Below, piece by piece: positions 13,272 through 29,861 of a stretch of DNA of 64,000 nucleotides (position 1 is its first letter; each line of letters starts with the position of its first letter). Under the pieces are notes generated by a model that was not told the DNA's origin, made no database searches, and was given only the letters and a program-made list of their open reading frames with translations. The position numbers and the translations under genes were made by a program. The stretch comes from Phycisphaerae bacterium (GTDB lineage: Bacteria > Planctomycetota > Phycisphaerae > Sedimentisphaerales > Anaerobacaceae): the NCBI GenBank assembly GCA_012744475.1, contig JAAYBV010000051.1:1-64000 (forward strand). The letters are read 5' to 3'.

Positions 13272-13472
13272 AGCATGGCCTCCTTCAGTCAATCTGTGCG
13301 AAGATTCACGCTTGTTCCGGCACGAAATCACGGACGACTCGCGCCGCCGGGTAGGATATGCGATGGGACCGCAAATGACAAGCCGCCCGACACCGCCATA
13401 GATCGAGCGGCACCACAGATTTCTTGCAGATGGACCGTTGACAGGCTCGGCCGCAATGCTATGTTGGAGGCC

Positions 13473-13745
13473 ATGAGCACGAGCGCAGACAACAAGGCCG
13501 GCGACAGATCCGATGCCGGCAGGCAGGAAACGATCGGCGGCATGTTGGCATCCGCACTGAACATGGAGGACGAGATCAGTTCGGGCGTCTACGAGGACTA
13601 CCTGAACCGCCGGCATTGGCCCAACGAGCTTGAAGAGGCCACCTTTCTCAACATCCAGCGGCGTCTGACCGTGCTGATTGACGATACCAGGAAGCACAAG
13701 AAGATCCTCCGGGCGCTGGTCAGAGAACATGGCGAAAACAAATAG
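13473..13745 (+). CDS. Half-size ferritin-like protein, first of a pair
   Basis: A 90-residue acidic/helical protein (an ATG at 13461 would add four residues; GGAGG sits very close to 13473). After a polar N-terminal stretch, two helices are predicted. The first contains MEDEISSGVYEDYL; the second contains RRLTVLIDDTRKHKKILR, giving an E...Y plus D..KH pattern like one half of a four-helix diiron protein. The last 17 bases overlap the next gene, which has a similar half-ferritin pattern. Two copies, or one of each, could build a complete diiron bundle. Iron binding is inferred; no family name is certain. Confidence 0.65.
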   Translation: MSTSADNKAGDRSDAGRQETIGGMLASALNMEDEISSGVYEDYLNRRHWPNELEEATFLNIQRRLTVLIDDTRKHKKILRALVREHGENK

Positions 13746-13950
13746 GCGAACGAAAGCCGACATCCTCCGCGAGTTCGAGACGATGAAGTCGTTCGAGCTG
13801 TCGGCCCGCGATCTGTACACGAAGATTGCCGCAGACCCCCATGCGGGCCCGCAGAAGATCAAGACCGCCTTCGCATCCCTGGCGGCCGACGAGCAACGTC
13901 ACGCCGACCTGGTCCAGGAAATCATCAACATCGTCACCGATGCTCTGTGA
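13729..13950 (+). CDS. Half-size ferritin-like protein, second of a pair
   Basis: 73 residues, starting at the ATG at 13729 inside the end of the previous gene (MAKTNRRTKADILREFE). Two helices are visible. The first has MKSFELSARDLYTKIA; the second has ASLAADEQRHADLVQEI, carrying the ExxH ligand motif typical of ferritin-like proteins. At this length it contains only half a bundle, so it must dimerise or pair with its neighbour, much as two-helix encapsulated ferritins do. It overlaps the following lipase-like gene by 11 bases, implying translational coupling through the trio. Confidence 0.7.
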   Translation: MAKTNRRTKADILREFETMKSFELSARDLYTKIAADPHAGPQKIKTAFASLAADEQRHADLVQEIINIVTDAL

Positions 13951-14854
13951 GCGCAGATATCCGCTGGGTCTGATCCTGATCCTGGTCCTTACCGCTGTCC
14001 CGCTATCGGGCCGTTCGCGCGCAGAGATGCTCATCTCAAGCGTCGATTCCCGCACCATACTGTACCTGGTCGACTCCGACGCCAACGCACCGGTATTCAC
14101 TGTCGCTTCAGAGAGTATGACCTGTGCCGAGCCCAATCTCGTGGTGGTCACGCATGGGTGGTATGAACGGCAGGCTTGGCCGAGTTGGATGGCGACGGCT
14201 ATCGGCAGACGCGTGGATCAACAGCAGTGGCAGTGCGGCTGGTATGACTGGCGGGTTCAGGCGAGGACGCTACGGCCGTCGCGCGCCGTGAAGGCAGGCC
14301 GCGACGTGGCCGGGCCATGGCTCGGGCGAAGGATCGTGACTCTTTCGAAGAACTGGCGACACGTGCACTTGATCGGTCACTCGGCGGGCGCCTGGGTCGT
14401 CAACGCCGCCGCCGAGACCATCGCGAGAGAGACTGCCGCCGAGATACACATCACCTTTCTCGACGCCTACGTCCCCGATGGCTGGGACGAGAAGGCCCTG
14501 GGCCGGCTGGCGCAAACCAATCCGAACCGTTTTTGGGCCGACCATTACTTCACACGAGACCCGCTCAACCTCACCGAAAACGTGCTGACCGGCGCGCACA
14601 ACGTGGATGTCACGGCCATCAACCCGGGTATCCGAGGGCATCTGTTTCCCTGGCACTGGTACCTGGCCACCGTCGCCGGACGCTACACCACGGACAAGCG
14701 TTTCATCGATGCACCCGTCTTCTGCAGGGCCGACGGCGTCACCTACGGCTTCCCGCGCTCCCTCGAAGCCAGCCCGTCCCAATGGCAGGTCAGCCTCACC
14801 CTCCCGGCGGTCGACGTCCCGGTCCGCATCCGGCGTCAGGATACGCATCCGTAG
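13940..14854 (+). CDS. Secreted lipase-like alpha/beta hydrolase
   Basis: 304 residues from the ATG at 13940, with a signal peptide (YPLGLILILVLTAVPLSG). An oxyanion-region motif LVVVTHGWYERQ is followed by the nucleophile elbow VHLIGHSAGAWVV (GxSxG). A likely acid lies in ITFLDAYVPDGW, and candidate histidines in LTGAHNVDV and GHLFPWHWYL. The layout recalls the pancreatic-lipase-like branch of esterases. The substrate is unknown. It overlaps the upstream ferritin-like gene by 11 bases, a surprising pairing of an intracellular iron-type protein with an exported hydrolase. A longer frame from 13826 exists but its start lies out of phase inside the ferritin gene. Confidence 0.8.
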   Translation: MLCERRYPLGLILILVLTAVPLSGRSRAEMLISSVDSRTILYLVDSDANAPVFTVASESMTCAEPNLVVVTHGWYERQAWPSWMATAIGRRVDQQQWQCGWYDWRVQARTLRPSRAVKAGRDVAGPWLGRRIVTLSKNWRHVHLIGHSAGAWVVNAAAETIARETAAEIHITFLDAYVPDGWDEKALGRLAQTNPNRFWADHYFTRDPLNLTENVLTGAHNVDVTAINPGIRGHLFPWHWYLATVAGRYTTDKRFIDAPVFCRADGVTYGFPRSLEASPSQWQVSLTLPAVDVPVRIRRQDTHP

Positions 14855-15635: not shown

Positions 15636-17114
15636 ATGGCAAAACTGGCGAAACTCGACGACATCGTGTCGCTGTGTAAGAGAAGGGGCTTCATCTTTCA
15701 GTCCAGCGAAATCTACGGCGGGCTGGCCAGTTGCTATGACTACGGGCCTCTGGGCGTCGAGCTGAAGAACAACGTCAAGCGGGCCTGGTGGAAACACGTC
15801 GTTCAGATGCGCGACGACGTCGTCGGCCTCGATTGCAGCATCCTGATGCACCCGCTGGTGTGGAAGGCCTCCGGGCACGCCGACAAGTTCGCCGATCTGA
15901 TCAGCGAGTGCAAGAAGTGCAACACGCGCACCCGCGTCGACCATCTGAAGGACAAAGACGGCGGCCACCCCGACGAGCACACCGAGCACGTCTCGATCGA
16001 CACCGCTGCCGCGGCCGAGCACGACCTGAGCCGCAAGGTCTGCCCAAACTGCGGCGCCGTCGGCCAGTTCACCCCGCCGATGCCGTTCAAGCTGATGTTC
16101 GAGACGCAGATGGGCGCCAACGCCGAGGATTCGATGACGATGTACCTGAGGCCGGAAACCGCCCAGGGCATCTTTGCCAACTTCCGCAACGTGCTGGACT
16201 CGACCCGCGTCAAGGTGCCCTTCGGGATCGCCCAGATCGGCAAGAGCTTCCGCAACGAAGTGACCACCAAGGCGTTCATCTTCCGCACCCGCGAATTCGA
16301 GCAGGCGGAGATCGAGTTCTTCTGCGAGCCGGGGACCGACGAGGAATGGTACGAGAAGTGGAAGGCGGCGCGCTTCGCGTGGTACACCGATCACGGCATC
16401 AAGAAGGAGAACTTGCGCTTCCGCGACCACGACCCCGATGAGCTGGCCCACTATGCCAAGGCCTGCGTCGACGTCGAGTACAGATTCCCCTTCGGCTCGG
16501 GCGACTGGCAGGAGCTCGAAGGCATCGCCAACCGCACGGACTACGACCTCCGCCAGCACCAGCGCGGCATGCGCAGCACCACAAGCTGGTTCGAGAACGG
16601 CCGCGACCTGACGAAGGTCAGGCTGGCCGACGAAGCCGAAGACTATCAGAAAGGCCCGCTGTCGTTCTTCGACGACCAGAAGCAGCAGCGCTACATCCCC
16701 TACGTGATCGAGCCCAGCGCCGGCATGGACCGCAGCACGCTGGCCTTCCTGGTCGACGCCTACGATGAAGAAGAAGTCAACGGCGAGACGCGCAACCTGC
16801 TGCGCTTCCATCCGAGCTTGGCGCCGACCAAAGCCGCCGTCTTCCCGCTGGTCAAGAAGGACGGGATGCCCGAGATCGCCCACAACATCGCCAACGATCT
16901 GAAGCGGTGCTTCACCTGCTTCTACGACGAGAAAGGCGCCGTCGGTCGTCGCTACCGCCGGCAGGATGAGGCGGGCACGCCCTTCTGCATCACCGTCGAC
17001 GGCCAGACCCTGGAGGACCAGACCGTCACCGTGCGCGAGCGCGACTCGATGGTCCAGACCCGCGTCGCCACCGACCAGCTCCGCACCTACCTCCGCGACA
17101 AACTGGACCTCTGA
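15636..17114 (+). CDS. glyS: Glycyl-tRNA synthetase, dimeric (alpha2) class II type
   Basis: 492 residues from the ATG at 15636 (MAKLAKLDDIVSLCKRRGF). Class II motifs are visible: QSSEIYGGLASCYDYGPLG near the N-terminus, LRPETAQGIFANFRNVLD (motif 2 region), IGKSFRNEVTTKAFIFRTRE (tRNA synthetase core) and EPSAGMDRSTLAFLVDAYDE (motif 3). Two CxxC pairs (ECKKCNT, CPNCGAVG) suggest a zinc-binding insert. The C-terminal anticodon-binding domain starts at about residue 395 (PTKAAVFPLVKKDG). It charges tRNA-Gly as a homodimer, unlike the alpha2beta2 bacterial GlyQS form. The next gene starts 83 bases downstream. Confidence 0.95.
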   Translation: MAKLAKLDDIVSLCKRRGFIFQSSEIYGGLASCYDYGPLGVELKNNVKRAWWKHVVQMRDDVVGLDCSILMHPLVWKASGHADKFADLISECKKCNTRTRVDHLKDKDGGHPDEHTEHVSIDTAAAAEHDLSRKVCPNCGAVGQFTPPMPFKLMFETQMGANAEDSMTMYLRPETAQGIFANFRNVLDSTRVKVPFGIAQIGKSFRNEVTTKAFIFRTREFEQAEIEFFCEPGTDEEWYEKWKAARFAWYTDHGIKKENLRFRDHDPDELAHYAKACVDVEYRFPFGSGDWQELEGIANRTDYDLRQHQRGMRSTTSWFENGRDLTKVRLADEAEDYQKGPLSFFDDQKQQRYIPYVIEPSAGMDRSTLAFLVDAYDEEEVNGETRNLLRFHPSLAPTKAAVFPLVKKDGMPEIAHNIANDLKRCFTCFYDEKGAVGRRYRRQDEAGTPFCITVDGQTLEDQTVTVRERDSMVQTRVATDQLRTYLRDKLDL

Positions 17115-17197
17115 CGGCGCTCCATCAAGAATTCGATTGAAGAAACCGGTCCGGCTGCGCATCTCTGTATAGGGGGACAACCCGGAGGGCCAGAGAG

Positions 17198-18904
17198 ATG
17201 TGTGCAGAGGATCAAGGGGCAAAGGACGACAAGAAGGCCAGGCGAAGACGAAAGTGGCATACCATCGGTCGCATCGCCTGCCTGCTTGGCGCGTGCATCT
17301 TCGTCCCGTTCTTCGTAACGGCGATCTGGATCGGCTATCTTTCGTGGATCGGCATTCTCGTCGGTATCGTCTACCTCGCGCCCGGGATCCTGTCACCGCT
17401 CGCCGGCCTGGCCGGCAGAAAACGACTTGAAGGCTTCCTCTCCTGGCTCAGTGCGGGCATGTTCGTCCTGCCGGCCCTGGCGGTGGCGCTGGCAACCATC
17501 TGGCCGACAGAAGACGATCCTGAGCGCTGGCGACCTTACCGGTTCGACGAAGAGTTCGCCGCCCTTGAAGCCGAACGAGCGATACCCGACCAAGAGAATG
17601 CGGCCATCCGCTGTGCCCCCCTGTTCGCCCGGCTGGATGCGAATGACCAGCTGACCGTCTTCTTCCATACAGGCCGCGAGAGCGATGTGTTGTACAAAGA
17701 CGCGTGGACCCGTGTCGAACAGCCGGAGGCGTCACAATGGCTCGACACCTACACTGGGGTGGTGGACGAAGTCGTTCGCGCGGCTGCAAACGGCTCATTC
17801 CGCTGGCCCTTGCAGCGATATACCTATGACGAGTCCACGGTTCCGTACAGACCCTTGAGGCGCGCCTTCCAGCTTCTCATCCTGTCGGCCAACCGCGACC
17901 TGGGCGAAGGACGATTCGAACGAGCCATCACCAGGTACTTCTGCGCCCTCGAAATGGCGCACGATCTGCGACGGCAGGTGCAACCCTTGGATTTTCGGAT
18001 CGGTCATGGCTATGAAACCCGGGTTCTCCGACTGATCCGCCGCGCCCTGGTCCAACACGCCCTCTCCAACCGGGACATCGCACTGATCGCGGAGCGTCTT
18101 CCCAAGACCGACGACGCTTGGCCCGCCGAAGCCACCGCTCTCTTTCGAGCGGAGAAGATTCGGTACATGAACCTCCTCGCGAGAATCTATGAGGTGAATC
18201 CGGAAGGAGAGGTGCGCTTTTCGAGCCAGATGCCACTATCGCCCGACGATCCGCCACAAGACATCCGTTGGTGTCGCCCGTACTGGCCAATGAATATGCC
18301 CCTCGATCCCAAGGGCCTGCACGACATCGCTGAGGATTACTTCTCCAGTCTGCACTACCTGCTTGAGCCGGATCGGCTGCCACCCGATGACCGGGAATCG
18401 GGCGCGAGTTGGACCGATTTCTGCCGGACACTCTCCAACTTCCACCGCTGGTTCGCCGAGATAACCATCTACCGCGCCGACGAATATGCCGAACTACACC
18501 GATTCCACGGCTCGCTCCTCGCCGAACGGCGCGGGACATGGCTGGTCCTGGCTCTGCGCCGTTACCGAGACGAGCACGGCTCGTGGCCCTCTTCCCTCAA
18601 CGAGGTCGCGGATCATATCGCCCCCGAAGCCTTCGTGGACCCCGCCAATGGAGGCGCGTTCGTGTATGCCCCCGTCGACGACAGCTTCAGTCTCTACAGC
18701 ACGGGTCTCAACCGCATCGATGAAGGCGGCCGGGAACGCTACGTCAAAGAGCGCAACCACCACGAGGACGATATCCTGATCTGGCCCCTTGCCAGGCCGG
18801 AGCCTCCCAAGCCTCGGTCCAAGGATGCGATCATGGAAGAACTCAAGGCCATCTATGGTGAAGAGTACATTAGACGCCTCCAGACGGACGCCAACGCTCC
18901 GTAA
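17198..18904 (+). CDS. Membrane-anchored tandem-family protein, copy 1 (568 aa)
   Basis: This is the first and longest of three neighbouring paralogues. A basic N-terminus is followed by three or four hydrophobic segments within residues 25-105, then a large soluble domain. Blocks shared with the next two genes are an entry block (ERAIPDQENAAI), a second block (SQWLDTYTGVVDEVV), a helical block (RDLGEGRFERAITRYFCALE) and a C-terminal block (LRRYRDEHGSWPSSLNEVAD, FSLYSTGLNRIDEGG). The last block resembles tails of planctomycete pseudopilin-like proteins. The start is the ATG at 17198 behind CCCGGAGGGC. The C-terminus ELKAIYGEEYIRRLQTDANA is also shared with copy 2. The function is unknown. Confidence 0.82.
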   Translation: MCAEDQGAKDDKKARRRRKWHTIGRIACLLGACIFVPFFVTAIWIGYLSWIGILVGIVYLAPGILSPLAGLAGRKRLEGFLSWLSAGMFVLPALAVALATIWPTEDDPERWRPYRFDEEFAALEAERAIPDQENAAIRCAPLFARLDANDQLTVFFHTGRESDVLYKDAWTRVEQPEASQWLDTYTGVVDEVVRAAANGSFRWPLQRYTYDESTVPYRPLRRAFQLLILSANRDLGEGRFERAITRYFCALEMAHDLRRQVQPLDFRIGHGYETRVLRLIRRALVQHALSNRDIALIAERLPKTDDAWPAEATALFRAEKIRYMNLLARIYEVNPEGEVRFSSQMPLSPDDPPQDIRWCRPYWPMNMPLDPKGLHDIAEDYFSSLHYLLEPDRLPPDDRESGASWTDFCRTLSNFHRWFAEITIYRADEYAELHRFHGSLLAERRGTWLVLALRRYRDEHGSWPSSLNEVADHIAPEAFVDPANGGAFVYAPVDDSFSLYSTGLNRIDEGGRERYVKERNHHEDDILIWPLARPEPPKPRSKDAIMEELKAIYGEEYIRRLQTDANAP

Positions 18905-18974
18905 GCCCGCTTGACAGAAGACTCGATTGAAGGAAGCACGCATGGTGAGGCGGACCACCCGGAGGGCAGAACAG

Positions 18975-20240
18975 ATGCAGACAGAGGACCCGCGACAGAA
19001 GACCGGTTGGCTCAAGCATGTCAGATTCGCGGCGGCGCTCGCCGCCCTGATAGGGGTGGCGATCTGCGGGCTCTGGCAGCTTGGGGATCGCCGCTCAGCC
19101 GACGCGCGGCTGGCCGATATCGAAGCAACCAGAAACGTCCCGGACGTTCAGGACGCCGCGATCATCTATCGCGAACTGTTTCGAGACACTCGCGCTACAT
19201 CGCTGTCGGATTCTCGTCCAGAGTCTCTGAATGGGTCGGTCTTCAATCAGCGGCTCTACGAACCCTGGCGCAGCGAAGAAGATCCCGAACTTGCCCGGTT
19301 CATCAAGAAGCATCGATACATCATCGACAAACTATTGGACGCATCTGCCCTCCACGAATGCCGATTTCCGTTGACCACGGATATTACGGCGGTGCTCTCA
19401 GAGGTGGATTATGCATCGATGCGCCAGTGGGCCTTCCTGTTAGGCTTTGCGGCCAACAACGACGTTGCAGAAAGACGACTCGACGATGCGACAGCCAAGT
19501 GGCGATGCCTTCTTCAAATGGGACATCACCTGCGCCAGCGTCCCGTACTCCTGGATTTTATTGTGGCCGATGGCATCCAGACCATCGGGCTCAAACGTCT
19601 GATTCATTTCGTGGCGGCCGAGGAACCAACTGAGGCCGACCTGAAGAGGATCGAAGCCATGCCCCTGTCAACTGCCGATGCGTGGACAGAGAACCTTCGC
19701 GACATCCGCACGGCTGACGATCTCCCGGTGCAGAAGATGATGGAGCAGTGGAGCCCCACGGAACGTCTTAAGTATCGGTTCTATGCGTACCGGTTCAACA
19801 AGGCCACAGGCGGACTGCTCAACAAATCCACATCGGAGGACAAGGCTGCCCAGAGCTACTTTCGAACCATGGCTCTGGCCCGTGGACTTCGCATCATCAT
19901 CGCCCTGAAACGGCATCGCACCGAAATCGGTCATTGGCCCGAGGGTCTGAACGAAGTTGCCACCTCTTTGCCTGAGCCAATCCTGACGGACCCACTGAAC
20001 GAAGGACCGTTCATCTATCGCCGAACGAACGGAGCCTTCGAGTTGTATTCCACAGGTGCGAACAAGATCGATGAGCAAGGCCGGGGTGAATCCGAAGGTA
20101 GTGACGACTGGCCCATCTGGATCCCTCCCGCACCGGCGCCACCCAGCCGCAACGGGCAGGACCCCATCATGAACGAACTCAAGGCCATCTACGGCGAGCG
20201 CTATATCACACGTCCACGAGCTGATGCCAACGCTCCGTAG
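18975..20240 (+). CDS. Membrane-anchored tandem-family protein, copy 2 (421 aa)
   Basis: I placed the start at the ATG at 18975 because its leader (CCCGGAGGGCAGAACAG) matches the leader of copy 1, and both then read MxxED. The in-frame ATG at 18942 and TTG at 18927 lie further upstream. One transmembrane helix (HVRFAAALAALIGVAICGLW) anchors a soluble domain. Conserved blocks are NVPDVQDAAIIYRELF, LARFIKKHRYIIDKLLDA with ECRFPL, RRLDDATAKWRCLLQMGHHL, and LKRHRTEIGHWPEGLNEVAT with FELYSTGANKIDEQG. The last 20 residues are nearly the same as in copy 1, pointing to fairly recent duplication. No enzyme motif is recognised. Confidence 0.83.
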   Translation: MQTEDPRQKTGWLKHVRFAAALAALIGVAICGLWQLGDRRSADARLADIEATRNVPDVQDAAIIYRELFRDTRATSLSDSRPESLNGSVFNQRLYEPWRSEEDPELARFIKKHRYIIDKLLDASALHECRFPLTTDITAVLSEVDYASMRQWAFLLGFAANNDVAERRLDDATAKWRCLLQMGHHLRQRPVLLDFIVADGIQTIGLKRLIHFVAAEEPTEADLKRIEAMPLSTADAWTENLRDIRTADDLPVQKMMEQWSPTERLKYRFYAYRFNKATGGLLNKSTSEDKAAQSYFRTMALARGLRIIIALKRHRTEIGHWPEGLNEVATSLPEPILTDPLNEGPFIYRRTNGAFELYSTGANKIDEQGRGESEGSDDWPIWIPPAPAPPSRNGQDPIMNELKAIYGERYITRPRADANAP

Positions 20241-20294
20241 ATTGGGCACTTCTGGCTGAAGAGATTCGCTTCCCACACGTCTGAGTTCGAGGAT

Positions 20295-21587
20295 ATGTCG
20301 GAGTTTGGAGCAATGGAACACGACAAGCCACCATCGGCCGACATCCGCCGACCATGGCGCAGGCGAATTGGCCTTGCGGTCATCGTCATCGCGACAGTGG
20401 CACTGGGGGTCAATGCATTGCTTCCCACATGGCAGAAGGAACTGGCGGCGATCGACGCGAAACGAGCAGTGGCGGATGAGGACAACGCGGCGTTGATCTA
20501 CGCCGAATTGCTGCAGGGCGAGGAGGTCCCGCCTACACCGAGCAAGCTGGATGCCGTGCTGGTGCCCATTATGGAGGCTACCACGGACCCGGTGTCGCTG
20601 CATGAGTATGGAATGAACGATAGAAGACTCGTCGAGTTGGAACTGCCCAAGGGATTGCTCGATCCGAACGACGAAGAGATCACCCTTTGGATGCCCTGGA
20701 CCTCCGCGAAACATCCCGAACTGAGGCAGTGGCTCGATACGCATCGGCATCGCATCGACCGACTCATGGATGCGACTGCGAAGTCCACCTGCTGTTTTCC
20801 CCTTGCACCTAAGGCAGGCCGCATGGGCCTGTTCGACGTACCCCTGGGCGCGATTCGCCAGTATGCGCATCTTCTGCGGCGTGACGCAAACAACGACATG
20901 GCCGAAGGCCGGATTGCCGACGGATTGGCGAAATACGAGGCGATCGTATCAACGGGGCGACATTTCCAGGCGCAGCCAGCAGCATACCTCGTCCTGACGG
21001 GCATCGGATGTGAGGCGATAGGATTGCATCACCTGATCGAATTCGTGGTAACCGGCCCGGCCACAGAGCAGGACTTGGACACGCTGATTATCGCAAACAA
21101 CGATCTGGCGGACCGTTGGAAATCTTTCCGCCGGGACATCAGCCGCGTGCGAGGGATCTTCGCTCGCGGCCTGGAAGACCGCAGGCGGCCCGATTTCCGC
21201 CTGTACCAGTGGTACAGATCGGTCCGCTATGGTGAGGATGGGTGGCACGCCGATCGCGTCGGCGAGTTGTATCATCGCGTGCTGTGCGAGAAGCGAGCAG
21301 TCGACATCCTTATTGAGCTGCGCCGATTCAAGAACCGGACCGGGCGATGGCCCGACCAGTTCGACGAGGTCGCATCGTGCGTCGATCCTTTGGTCCTGAT
21401 CGATCCGCAGAATGGCGGTCCCTATGTGTACCAACGGATCGAAGAAGGGTTTCGGCTATACAGCACCGGACCGAACGGCAAGGATGAGAACGGAGAGCAC
21501 ACCTGGAATGGGCCCGACGACTGGCCCATCTGGCCGCGACGGGGAGAGCCGAGATTGTCGAAACCCGAGGACGTCAACGACGTATAG
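20295..21587 (+). CDS. Membrane-anchored tandem-family protein, copy 3 (430 aa)
   Basis: Third paralogue, 54 bases after copy 2. An ATG at 20313 is an alternative start. One membrane helix (RRIGLAVIVIATVALGVNAL) is followed by the shared blocks: KRAVADEDNAALIYAELL, LRQWLDTHRHRIDRLMDA with CCFPLAP, GRIADGLAKYEAIVSTGRHF, and LRRFKNRTGRWPDQFDEVAS with FRLYSTGPNGKDENG. The end differs from copies 1 and 2. The protein is probably anchored in the inner membrane with its domain outside the cytoplasm. A PspC gene follows after 39 bases, so an envelope-related role is possible but unproven. Confidence 0.83.
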   Translation: MSEFGAMEHDKPPSADIRRPWRRRIGLAVIVIATVALGVNALLPTWQKELAAIDAKRAVADEDNAALIYAELLQGEEVPPTPSKLDAVLVPIMEATTDPVSLHEYGMNDRRLVELELPKGLLDPNDEEITLWMPWTSAKHPELRQWLDTHRHRIDRLMDATAKSTCCFPLAPKAGRMGLFDVPLGAIRQYAHLLRRDANNDMAEGRIADGLAKYEAIVSTGRHFQAQPAAYLVLTGIGCEAIGLHHLIEFVVTGPATEQDLDTLIIANNDLADRWKSFRRDISRVRGIFARGLEDRRRPDFRLYQWYRSVRYGEDGWHADRVGELYHRVLCEKRAVDILIELRRFKNRTGRWPDQFDEVASCVDPLVLIDPQNGGPYVYQRIEEGFRLYSTGPNGKDENGEHTWNGPDDWPIWPRRGEPRLSKPEDVNDV

Positions 21588-21626
21588 GTCTGTGGACAGG
21601 CAACCGACAGACGCGAAAGGGTACGG

Positions 21627-21815
21627 ATGAAACGACTGCATCTTTCCAGGACGGACAAGAAGATTTTTGGGGTCTGCGGCGGGATCGGCGAGACCTACGA
21701 CATCGACCCGACTCTGGTCCGGCTGATCGTCGTATTCCTCTGCTTCGCCACCGCCATCGTCCCGGTCGGCCTGACCTACCTGGTCGCCTGGGCCATCATG
21801 CCCAAAGACGCGTGA
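21627..21815 (+). CDS. PspC-domain membrane protein
   Basis: A 62-residue protein that is essentially one PspC domain. It has the amphipathic start KRLHLSRTDKKIFGVCGGIG, the conserved YDIDPTLVRLI, and a C-terminal membrane helix (VVFLCFATAIVPVGLTYLVA). PspC proteins act in phage-shock and envelope-stress responses or serve as small membrane regulators. There is no PspA gene in view. It sits 39 bases after the last tandem paralogue, so co-transcription is likely. Confidence 0.9.
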   Translation: MKRLHLSRTDKKIFGVCGGIGETYDIDPTLVRLIVVFLCFATAIVPVGLTYLVAWAIMPKDA

Positions 21816-28349: not shown

Positions 28350-29861
28350 ATGAGCAGTAAGCCCAGCGTGTACGTCAATGAGTTGAAACACCATGTCGGG
28401 CAGGAAGTCACCCTGCACGGCTGGGTCTACAATAGCCGGGCCAGCGGCAAGATCCAGTTCGTCATCCTGCGGGATGGAACCGGCCTGTGCCAGTGCACCG
28501 TTGAGAGGGCCAACGTGCCCGAAGAGCTGTTCGAACGGATCAAGCACCTGGGGCAGGAATCGTCGTTGAGCCTCACCGGCGCCGTCCGCGCCGACGAACG
28601 CAGCGTCGGCGGCTATGAGCTGGCGGTGACCGGCGCCCGGATCGTCGCCCCGGCCGAGGGCTACCCCATCACGCCCAAGGCCCACGGCGTCGATTTCCTG
28701 ATGCGCCACCGCCACCTGCACTTCCGCTCCCAGCGCCAGTGGTGCCTCGGCAAGGTCCGTCATACCGTGGTCGACGCGATCCGGCGATTCTTCAACGACC
28801 ACGGCTTCACTCTCGTCGACACGCCCATCTTCACCACCGTGGTCGGCGAAGACCAGACCTCGCTGTTCGAGGTGGACTACTTCGGCAGCCCGCTGCACCT
28901 GACGCAGACGGGCCAGCTCTATCTGGAGTCGGCCGCGATGAGCTTCGGCCGCGTCTACTGCTTCGGGCCGACCTTCCGTGCCGAGAAGAGCAAAACCCGC
29001 CGGCACCTGACCGAGTTCTGGATGGTCGAGCCGGAGGTGGCCTTCATCGAGCTTCCCGGACTGCTGGAGCTGGCGGAGAACTTCGTCTCTTACATCGTCC
29101 GCCGCGTGCTGGAGGACAACCGCAGCGAGCTCCAGACGCTCGGAGCCGATATCCCGATGCTGGAGCAGATCAAGCCGCCCTTCCACCGGCTGACGTACAG
29201 CGAAGCGGTCGAAATCCTCAAGGGCCCCAGGACCGTGGAGTTCATGGCGCAGGACCTGGCCGACCTTCAGGGCGAGAAGGCCCGGATGGAAACACGCATC
29301 GCGGAACTGGAGCAGCAGCAAAGCGGGCAGATCAAGCAGTGGCAGAAGGACAAGATCGCCGCCGAGCTGATCGACCTGCGAAGCGAACTGGCCGAAACGG
29401 AGACGAAGATCGAGAACAATCCCAAACACGCCCAACTGGCCGCCGAGTTCACCTGGGGAAAGGACCTGGGCGGCTCCGACGAGACGATCATCTCGCGCAT
29501 GCACGACAAGCCCGTCTTCGTGACGCACTATCCGCGAGAGGCTAAGGCCTTTTACATGAAGACCGACCGCGCCGACGAGCGGGTGGTGGAGAATTTCGAC
29601 ATGCTCGCTCCGGCGGGCTTCGGCGAGATCATCGGCGGCTCGGTGCGCGAAGACGACTACGACCGTCTGCTGGCGCGGATTCACGACCAGGGGCTCAACC
29701 CCGAGACCTACGGCTGGTACCTCGATCTGCGCAAGTACGGCTCGGTCCCCCACGGCGGCTTCGGCCTTGGCGTGGAACGCACCTTGGCCTGGATCGCGGG
29801 CGAACGGCACATCCGCCAGTGTATCCCCTTCCCCCGCATGATGGACAAAGTCTACATCTGA
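28350..29861 (+). CDS. asnS: Asparaginyl-tRNA synthetase with coiled-coil insertion
   Basis: 503 residues, longer than the usual ~430-470. The N-terminal OB fold (VTLHGWVYNSRASGKIQFV) binds the anticodon. Class II motifs follow: DTPIFTTVVGEDQTSLFEV, FGPTFRAEKSKTRRHLTEF (motif 2) and GFGLGVERTLAWIAG (motif 3). Between residues ~292 and ~366 there is a charged helical stretch (KARMETRIAELEQQQ, LRSELAETETKIEN) that splits EILK from TWGKDLGGSDE and reads as an antiparallel coiled coil absent from E. coli AsnRS. It charges tRNA-Asn. The start is the ATG at 28350 after GAGGAAAC. Confidence 0.95.
   Translation: MSSKPSVYVNELKHHVGQEVTLHGWVYNSRASGKIQFVILRDGTGLCQCTVERANVPEELFERIKHLGQESSLSLTGAVRADERSVGGYELAVTGARIVAPAEGYPITPKAHGVDFLMRHRHLHFRSQRQWCLGKVRHTVVDAIRRFFNDHGFTLVDTPIFTTVVGEDQTSLFEVDYFGSPLHLTQTGQLYLESAAMSFGRVYCFGPTFRAEKSKTRRHLTEFWMVEPEVAFIELPGLLELAENFVSYIVRRVLEDNRSELQTLGADIPMLEQIKPPFHRLTYSEAVEILKGPRTVEFMAQDLADLQGEKARMETRIAELEQQQSGQIKQWQKDKIAAELIDLRSELAETETKIENNPKHAQLAAEFTWGKDLGGSDETIISRMHDKPVFVTHYPREAKAFYMKTDRADERVVENFDMLAPAGFGEIIGGSVREDDYDRLLARIHDQGLNPETYGWYLDLRKYGSVPHGGFGLGVERTLAWIAGERHIRQCIPFPRMMDKVYI

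Follow-up and report, generated by a model that had tools for sequence, protein, structure and literature searches.

The described systems closest to the genes reported here are the HAAS-PadR pairs, the type II secretion pseudopilin GspG, and the Psp system with its PspC protein. HAAS-PadR has been proposed to take the place of a two-component system, with fused sensor domains that read membrane or intracellular cues, and its dyads are found together with sensor domains, with PspC and with Toastrack in the context of membrane stress, as set out in the accessible part of that paper (PMC11237479). The outer domains that the same part names with these dyads are Toastrack, LiaI-LiaF-TM, FtsX/MacB, FtsW and pentapeptide repeats, and the words 'planctomycet' and 'pilin' occur nowhere in the main text (PMC11237479). 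For GspG, a second report states that secretion function needs the coordinating aspartates of a calcium site (PMC10574481). The genes in question are three tandem paralogues, here called copies 1, 2 and 3, which lie between glyS and pspC in a 64,000-nucleotide stretch of DNA from a Phycisphaerae bacterium (contig JAAYBV010000051.1, positions 1 to 64,000; hereafter the window).

Each of these systems resembles the locus in part. The family to which the copies belong shares with GspG a long helix, a small beta sheet and a P..DP....Y....F.LYS.G.N..D.GG pattern in its head, but it has no prepilin cleavage/methylation motif and its head is mounted on a transmembrane (TM)-anchored alpha-superhelix. 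A sister branch recalls HAAS-PadR in having a HAAS-like N-terminus and PadR directly upstream; the family's outer domain, however, is none of those named in the part of the HAAS-PadR paper cited above, and the window copies carry neither component. The 62-aa product of the downstream gene is a PspC domain, but in contrast to the classical Psp system the host PspC stands alone in a genome with no PspA match, and in this bacterial order its gene adjoins glyS. We propose that the window proteins are outward-facing envelope sensor or scaffold modules, anchored in the inner membrane, with a pseudopilin-type head, a function that we infer and to which we give a probability of about 0.45. Prediction supports the anatomy of the proteins well; the backing for a signalling role comes from gene order in the sister branch only.

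The three copies belong to a large planctomycete family

The three copies are homologous far beyond chance, with best two-sequence BLASTP E values of 1e-26 for copies 1 and 2, 6e-19 for copies 1 and 3, and 5e-59 for copies 2 and 3. A previous reading of the DNA made without database searches (the sequence-only reading) had described four blocks common to the three, and these are present in every copy, in a looser form than it had written them. Copy 2 reads DVQDAA instead of DxxNAA in block 1, the copy 1 version of block 2 ends in WPL, block 3 appears as GRFERAITRY, RRLDDATAKW and GRIADGLAKY in copies 1, 2 and 3, respectively, and the tail block of copy 3 is TGRWPDQFDEV...LYSTGPNGKD. Both alanines of NAA and, in the tail, W-P, D, Y, Y and W are invariant in an alignment of 27 members, which combines the 3 window copies with 24 sequences from named loci.

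Under E 1e-10, a family profile derived from the window copies and their relatives picked up 53 called genes across the window and the first 40 stretches. At E 1e-10 there was a family match in 57 of 61 genomes (the host and 60 relatives). The number of matches reached 22 in a single genome and was 17 in the host; one protein may yield two matches, and large genomes were scored for 26 candidates. Across the phylum, at least 46 of 196 evenly drawn genomes of at least 85% completeness matched at E 1e-30, a lower bound obtained with about eight candidates scored in each. The scan for named loci relied on one short pattern; of the 20 loci that it gave, two are titled 'uncultured bacterium' and the others bear planctomycete names of differing rank. 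By sequence similarity these genes form one large, coherent and unnamed family of the Planctomycetota.

The absence of a named function from the sequence-only reading was borne out. Pfam and NCBIfam models do not cover the window proteins, the profile search gave no strong match of these proteins to a characterised family, and a literature search that left most subscription journals outside its reach found no paper on the family. The Pfam and NCBIfam rows that the window proteins did produce were at chance level, and single or double rows among 49 members, such as those for MFS_1, Fijivirus P9-2 and TctB, were also judged to be chance.

An N-terminal membrane anchor had been predicted for every copy, and hydropathy agrees, giving copies 2 and 3 a single TM helix each and copy 1 about three. 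In every copy a basic stretch comes ahead of the first TM helix, so that under the positive-inside rule the N-terminus would be inside and the large domain outside, probably extracytoplasmic or periplasmic in the window copies.

A GspG-like head is predicted at the C-terminus

AlphaFold2 models of copies 1 and 2, with the 27 sequences as input, reached a pLDDT of 81.1 and a pTM of 0.73 for copy 1 and of 87.6 and 0.80 for copy 2. Both start with helices that include the anchor, continue into an alpha-superhelix and end in a unit that pairs one long helix with a small sheet; the soluble part, for which the sequence-only reading had suggested structure prediction, is thus modelled as an alpha-superhelix with a GspG-like head. 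When the copy 1 head was compared with known structures (VIA-align), GspG 3gn9_A was the top row at Z 8.8 and rmsd 2.5 over 88 residues, GspG 4lw9 scored Z 8.7, and type IV pilins scored lower. The copy 2 head matched 3gn9_A and 4lw9_I at Z 6.8 and rmsd 2.6 over 88 and 86 residues, respectively, as rows 10 and 11 behind nine helical-repeat chains. By the aligner's own note the Z values of the GspG matches are modest. Matches of the superhelix to designed repeats, TPR and Get4-like chains (Z about 5-8) were given no weight because, according to the aligner, they are expected for helical models.

Sequence profiles weakly back the GspG likeness. At E 0.05, 11 of 44 C-terminal segments matched T2SSG (PF08334; best 4.9e-5), the GspG model TIGR01710 matched 9 of 49 family proteins (best 4.5e-4), and a profile of the tail matched the PDB entry for GspG 2kep at E 0.002. 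The full-length window proteins had no T2SSG or GspG match at E 1, and the copy 2 tail had no T2SSG match at E 0.05. The pseudopilin-like tail proposed earlier is therefore supported by the fold of copies 1 and 2 together with the profiles. The tail aspartates at alignment positions 72 and 84 are invariant in 44 rows and would be candidates for a calcium site. A prepilin-type motif occurred in the first 120 residues of none of 126 distinct open reading frames (ORFs), and the window N-termini consist of a basic stretch followed by a TM helix. Lacking a prepilin N-terminus, the family proteins are not pilins or pseudopilins, despite their pseudopilin-like head.

A sister branch carries a HAAS-like domain beside a PadR gene

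The strongest pointer to function lies beyond the window. A HAAS-like N-terminal domain was detected in 36 of 126 distinct members by a hidden Markov model that we built from 15 of them; Pfam HAAS was found in 9 of 49 members (best 3.6e-4), and 10 of the 49 matched perm_prefix_1, which NCBIfam describes as a permease prefix domain (best 1.2e-4). The HAAS-like domain of this branch precedes the TM helix. At 26 of 30 HAAS loci the gene directly upstream encodes PadR (PF03551; the two scanned scored E 2.6e-23 and 7e-24), and two of the four exceptions start at a contig end; none of the 90 distinct non-HAAS members has a PadR gene in that place. L121-L140 supplied eighteen of the 30 loci and were picked mostly for matching the profile from its start, a choice that favours HAAS forms and in which PadR played no part. 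Fifteen Pfam families had a match at E 0.05 in at least one of 49 members, and Toastrack (DUF4097) is not one of them. Other regulator-like neighbours were also seen: four loci, including one of the host genome, have ECF-sigma-like ORFs within 2.5 kb of non-HAAS members (L062:7233-10164, L160, L149 and L133).

As the sister branch adjoins a gene regulator, we read the window proteins as likely envelope sensors or scaffolds, at the odds given above. In the sister branch, the outer domain would sense the state of the envelope and HAAS would pass the signal to PadR. The same outer domain in the window copies would serve as an envelope-status sensor or scaffold, with any output running via a membrane partner, for which the co-directional PspC is the nearest candidate, though unproven. 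Conceivable ligands of the head are a component of a pseudopilus or pilus, some other envelope protein, or calcium. The label 'envelope-related' given to these genes by the sequence-only reading is plausible in view of topology, fold and the HAAS/PadR branch. More tentatively, the family may represent a phylum-wide case of a GspG-type head on a TM-anchored alpha-superhelix turned into an envelope-sensing domain, with one branch linked to HAAS-PadR, some members adjacent to ECF sigma genes, and one branch placed between glyS and asnS with a PspA-free PspC. Such an account would supply a name, an architecture and a role open to test for this planctomycete family. If true, it would mean that a pseudopilin head is used outside a pilin and that HAAS-PadR has a sensor domain not found in the literature searched. 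The survey also documents PspC in this order at one housekeeping locus, mostly without PspA.

The glyS-asnS interval and its residents

The locus is bounded by glyS on the left and asnS on the right, the landmarks of a conserved interval. Among the 61 genomes, 54 had a glyS match (E 1e-60), 53 an asnS match and 49 both; in 37 the two genes were co-directional and less than 15 kb apart. These 37 intact intervals contained the family in 11 cases, pspC in 13, both in 6 and neither in 19. The pspC gene occurs in 15 of the 61 genomes as a single copy, always on the contig and strand of glyS and 21-4519 bp downstream of it, and the host genome has one PspC match at E 1e-5. The relative G024 has a weak pspC-like ORF, detected with a home-made profile only, which was not counted as pspC.

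In at least one genome each, the interval also carries YhcH-type, HEPN, nucleotidyltransferase, HicA, D12 DNA methyltransferase and AsnA genes. This assortment suggests a site where unrelated genes settle, as if the interval were an insertion hot spot. Toxin-antitoxin-like or mobile genes lie between glyS and asnS at L054:6747-7520, L053:10892-11598, L104:2488-3131 and L113:2398-6782 (HEPN, HicA, nucleotidyltransferase and D12 genes were assigned via Pfam; the L053 genes and a transposase-like ORF in L113 by eye). The AsnA (aspartate-ammonia ligase) gene was seen in G053 (L119:1866-2906). Words of the glyS 3' end recur at L054:7170-7195 and, judged by eye, near 7840-7870 of L054 before the family gene of G004; such repeats might be traces of an insertion at the glyS end.

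History of the array

A quick tree of 73 members (at most 14 HAAS rows and at most 18 others) placed all 38 glyS/asnS-linked rows, the three window copies and four others in one clade with an SH-aLRT of 99, and the 14 HAAS-bearing rows on the opposite side. The gathering of the glyS/asnS-linked members in one clade indicates that the locus is inherited. At one HAAS locus, L076, glyS lies nearby on the opposite strand, and the member there was labelled HAAS.

Within the tree, copy 1 grouped with G004, copy 2 with G003 and copy 3 with G002, all congeneric with the host. Identity to the nearest relative was 77% for copy 1 (G004, same locus), 52% for copy 2 and 56-58% for copy 3 (a G002 gene). A recent tandem triplication was rejected because each copy pairs with a different congeneric gene, and this grouping with different genomes points to an old array from which copies have since been lost or to which they have been added. 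G003, G004 and G005 have one copy each at the locus. In G002, three family genes stand together (L041:7191-11431) far from a partial glyS match, in a locus with masked bases, and the genome gave no asnS match.

The leaders of copies 1 and 2 had been said to match, and they do, at 76% over 41 nt with a GGAGG site common to both; taken alone the match is modest, since 13 of 3000 random window stretches scored equally, leader-overlapping stretches included. Similar leaders precede family genes in the congeneric G002, G003, G004 and G005. Copies 1 and 2, and not copy 3, also share a 3' tail of 82 nt at 73% identity. The copy 1 tail recurs in the G004 relative and, in diverged form, in one G002 gene; neither the copy 1 relative in G005 nor the nearest relative of copy 2 (G003) has it, though the latter does have a similar leader. 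The body of copy 2 belongs to a short group with one TM helix, and its leader and last 82 nt are copy-1-like. Copy 2 thus looks like a mosaic, for which exchange between neighbours in the array would be the simplest account.

Weighing the functional reading

Several observations weigh against envelope sensing or scaffolding. Foldseek searches of PDB and BFVD gave no match under E 0.001, Pfam HAAS scored below its gathering score in three members inspected singly, and the window copies have no HAAS domain and no PadR gene. The joint occurrence of family and pspC is not significant (Fisher p = 0.14): pspC is found in 6 of 11 intervals with the family versus 7 of 26 without, and four of the six joint cases come from one genus. 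PspA (PF04012) had no match at E 1e-5 in the host or in 14 of the 15 pspC genomes, and is present in one. PilM, PilN and PilO genes lie two genes past a HAAS-PadR member on the same strand in G015 (L075:1006-3266), and an N-methylation (prepilin-type) protein is encoded beyond asnS near a glyS-branch member in G021 (L049:7750-8682). These last neighbours would suit a structural or secretion role, in which the head would dock onto a type II secretion pseudopilus or type IV pilus or form its cap, or the protein would be a static scaffold, and nothing would be signalled. In the host genome GspG has 4 strong matches (PF08334, E 2e-27 to 8e-35) and T2SSE, the secretion ATPase family, has 18, and the predicted fold of the family head is that of GspG. 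Because pilus-type genes stand near some members, we raised our estimate for this alternative slightly. It and the co-residence of unrelated genes discussed below are the main rivals, but we give it clearly less than even odds: such genes were seen at 2 loci only, in a Pfam scan that took in 7 neighbour proteins from 5 loci chosen by eye, and not beside the window copies; the prepilin motif is absent from all 126 ORFs; and one would hardly expect a purely structural protein to have a HAAS-PadR branch.

A further question is whether pspC and the family share a function at all. It is quite possible, at somewhat less than even odds, that they are independent residents of the glyS-asnS interval whose order reflects shared inheritance. 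The pspC gene occurs without the family in 7 of 13 intervals and the family without pspC in 5 of 11 (one of the five being G024, with its weak pspC-like ORF), and the interval takes up unrelated genes; yet the family and pspC genes are co-directional with glyS, pspC is downstream of glyS in 15 of 15 genomes, and in the genus of the window all four genomes with an intact interval carry both. Since pspC holds this place with or without the family, and given the p value above, we consider it tied to glyS and not to the family, and the contingency count made us put less weight on PspC as a family partner. The sequence-only reading had pointed to a neighbour survey for conserved pspC linkage; the linkage does recur in relatives, as part of the glyS-asnS neighbourhood and not of the family. 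That the three copies are redundant duplicates heading for decay seems highly improbable. Their strong divergence and the single copies kept at the locus in G003, G004 and G005 would suit such a course, but all three frames are open and retain the conserved residues, and other genomes contain relatives that are 77, 52 and 56% identical to copies 1, 2 and 3, respectively.

Locus layout and other features

The ORF reading agrees with the order described earlier, three tandem genes and then pspC after glyS, with gaps of 70, 54 and 39 bases (Table 1). The operon-like arrangement downstream of glyS is likewise upheld, the genes being co-directional. A scan for promoters and terminators gave no more than shuffled sequence did. 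For copy 2, the copy-1-like leader favours a start at 18975 over 18942; a simple gene caller starts copy 3 later, at 20397. The L042 homologue through which asnS was recognised has Pfam tRNA-synt_2 with an OB-fold anticodon domain.

Table 1. Positions of the genes, repeats and predicted domains within the window.
Feature	Position	Strand	Remarks
glyS (glycyl-tRNA synthetase)	15636..17114	+	Pfam anticodon-binding and tRNA-synt_2b; name read from domains
Leader before copy 1, with GGAGG ribosome-binding site	17171..17211	+	direct repeat with copy 2 leader, 76%
Copy 1, 568 aa	17198-18904	+	about three TM helices, residues 26-44, 51-69 and 80-98
Copy 1 predicted GspG-type pseudopilin head, residues 432-531	18491..18790	+	structure alignment of model
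Copy 1 3' tail, repeated in copy 2	18822..18903	+	direct repeat, 82 nt, 73%
Copy 2 leader, copy-1-like	18948..18988	+	direct repeat
Copy 2, 421 aa	18975-20240	+	one TM helix, residues 18-36; alpha-superhelix about 56-280
Copy 2 predicted GspG-type pseudopilin head, residues 290-384	19842..20126	+	structure alignment of model
Copy 2 3' tail, resembles copy 1 tail	20158..20239	+	direct repeat
Copy 3, 430 aa	20295-21587	+	one TM helix, residues 25-43
Copy 3 putative pseudopilin-like head	21270..21539	+	sequence alignment only (models cover copies 1 and 2)
pspC, 62 aa	21627-21815	+	PF04024, E 8e-21, 74 bits versus cut-off 25
asnS (asparaginyl-tRNA synthetase)	28350..29861	+	homology to L042 protein; name is a reading of domains

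The protein at 2255-3853 of L065 (on the same contig as L086) has last residues that are probably not biological, because the contig end translates to what we take to be a sequencing adapter. Upstream of glyS, the window has three co-directional genes of 94, 73 and 304 aa at 13461-14854; the ORF over the second scored just above the Pfam cut-off for Rubrerythrin, and the trio is also found near glyS in the relatives G003 and G005.

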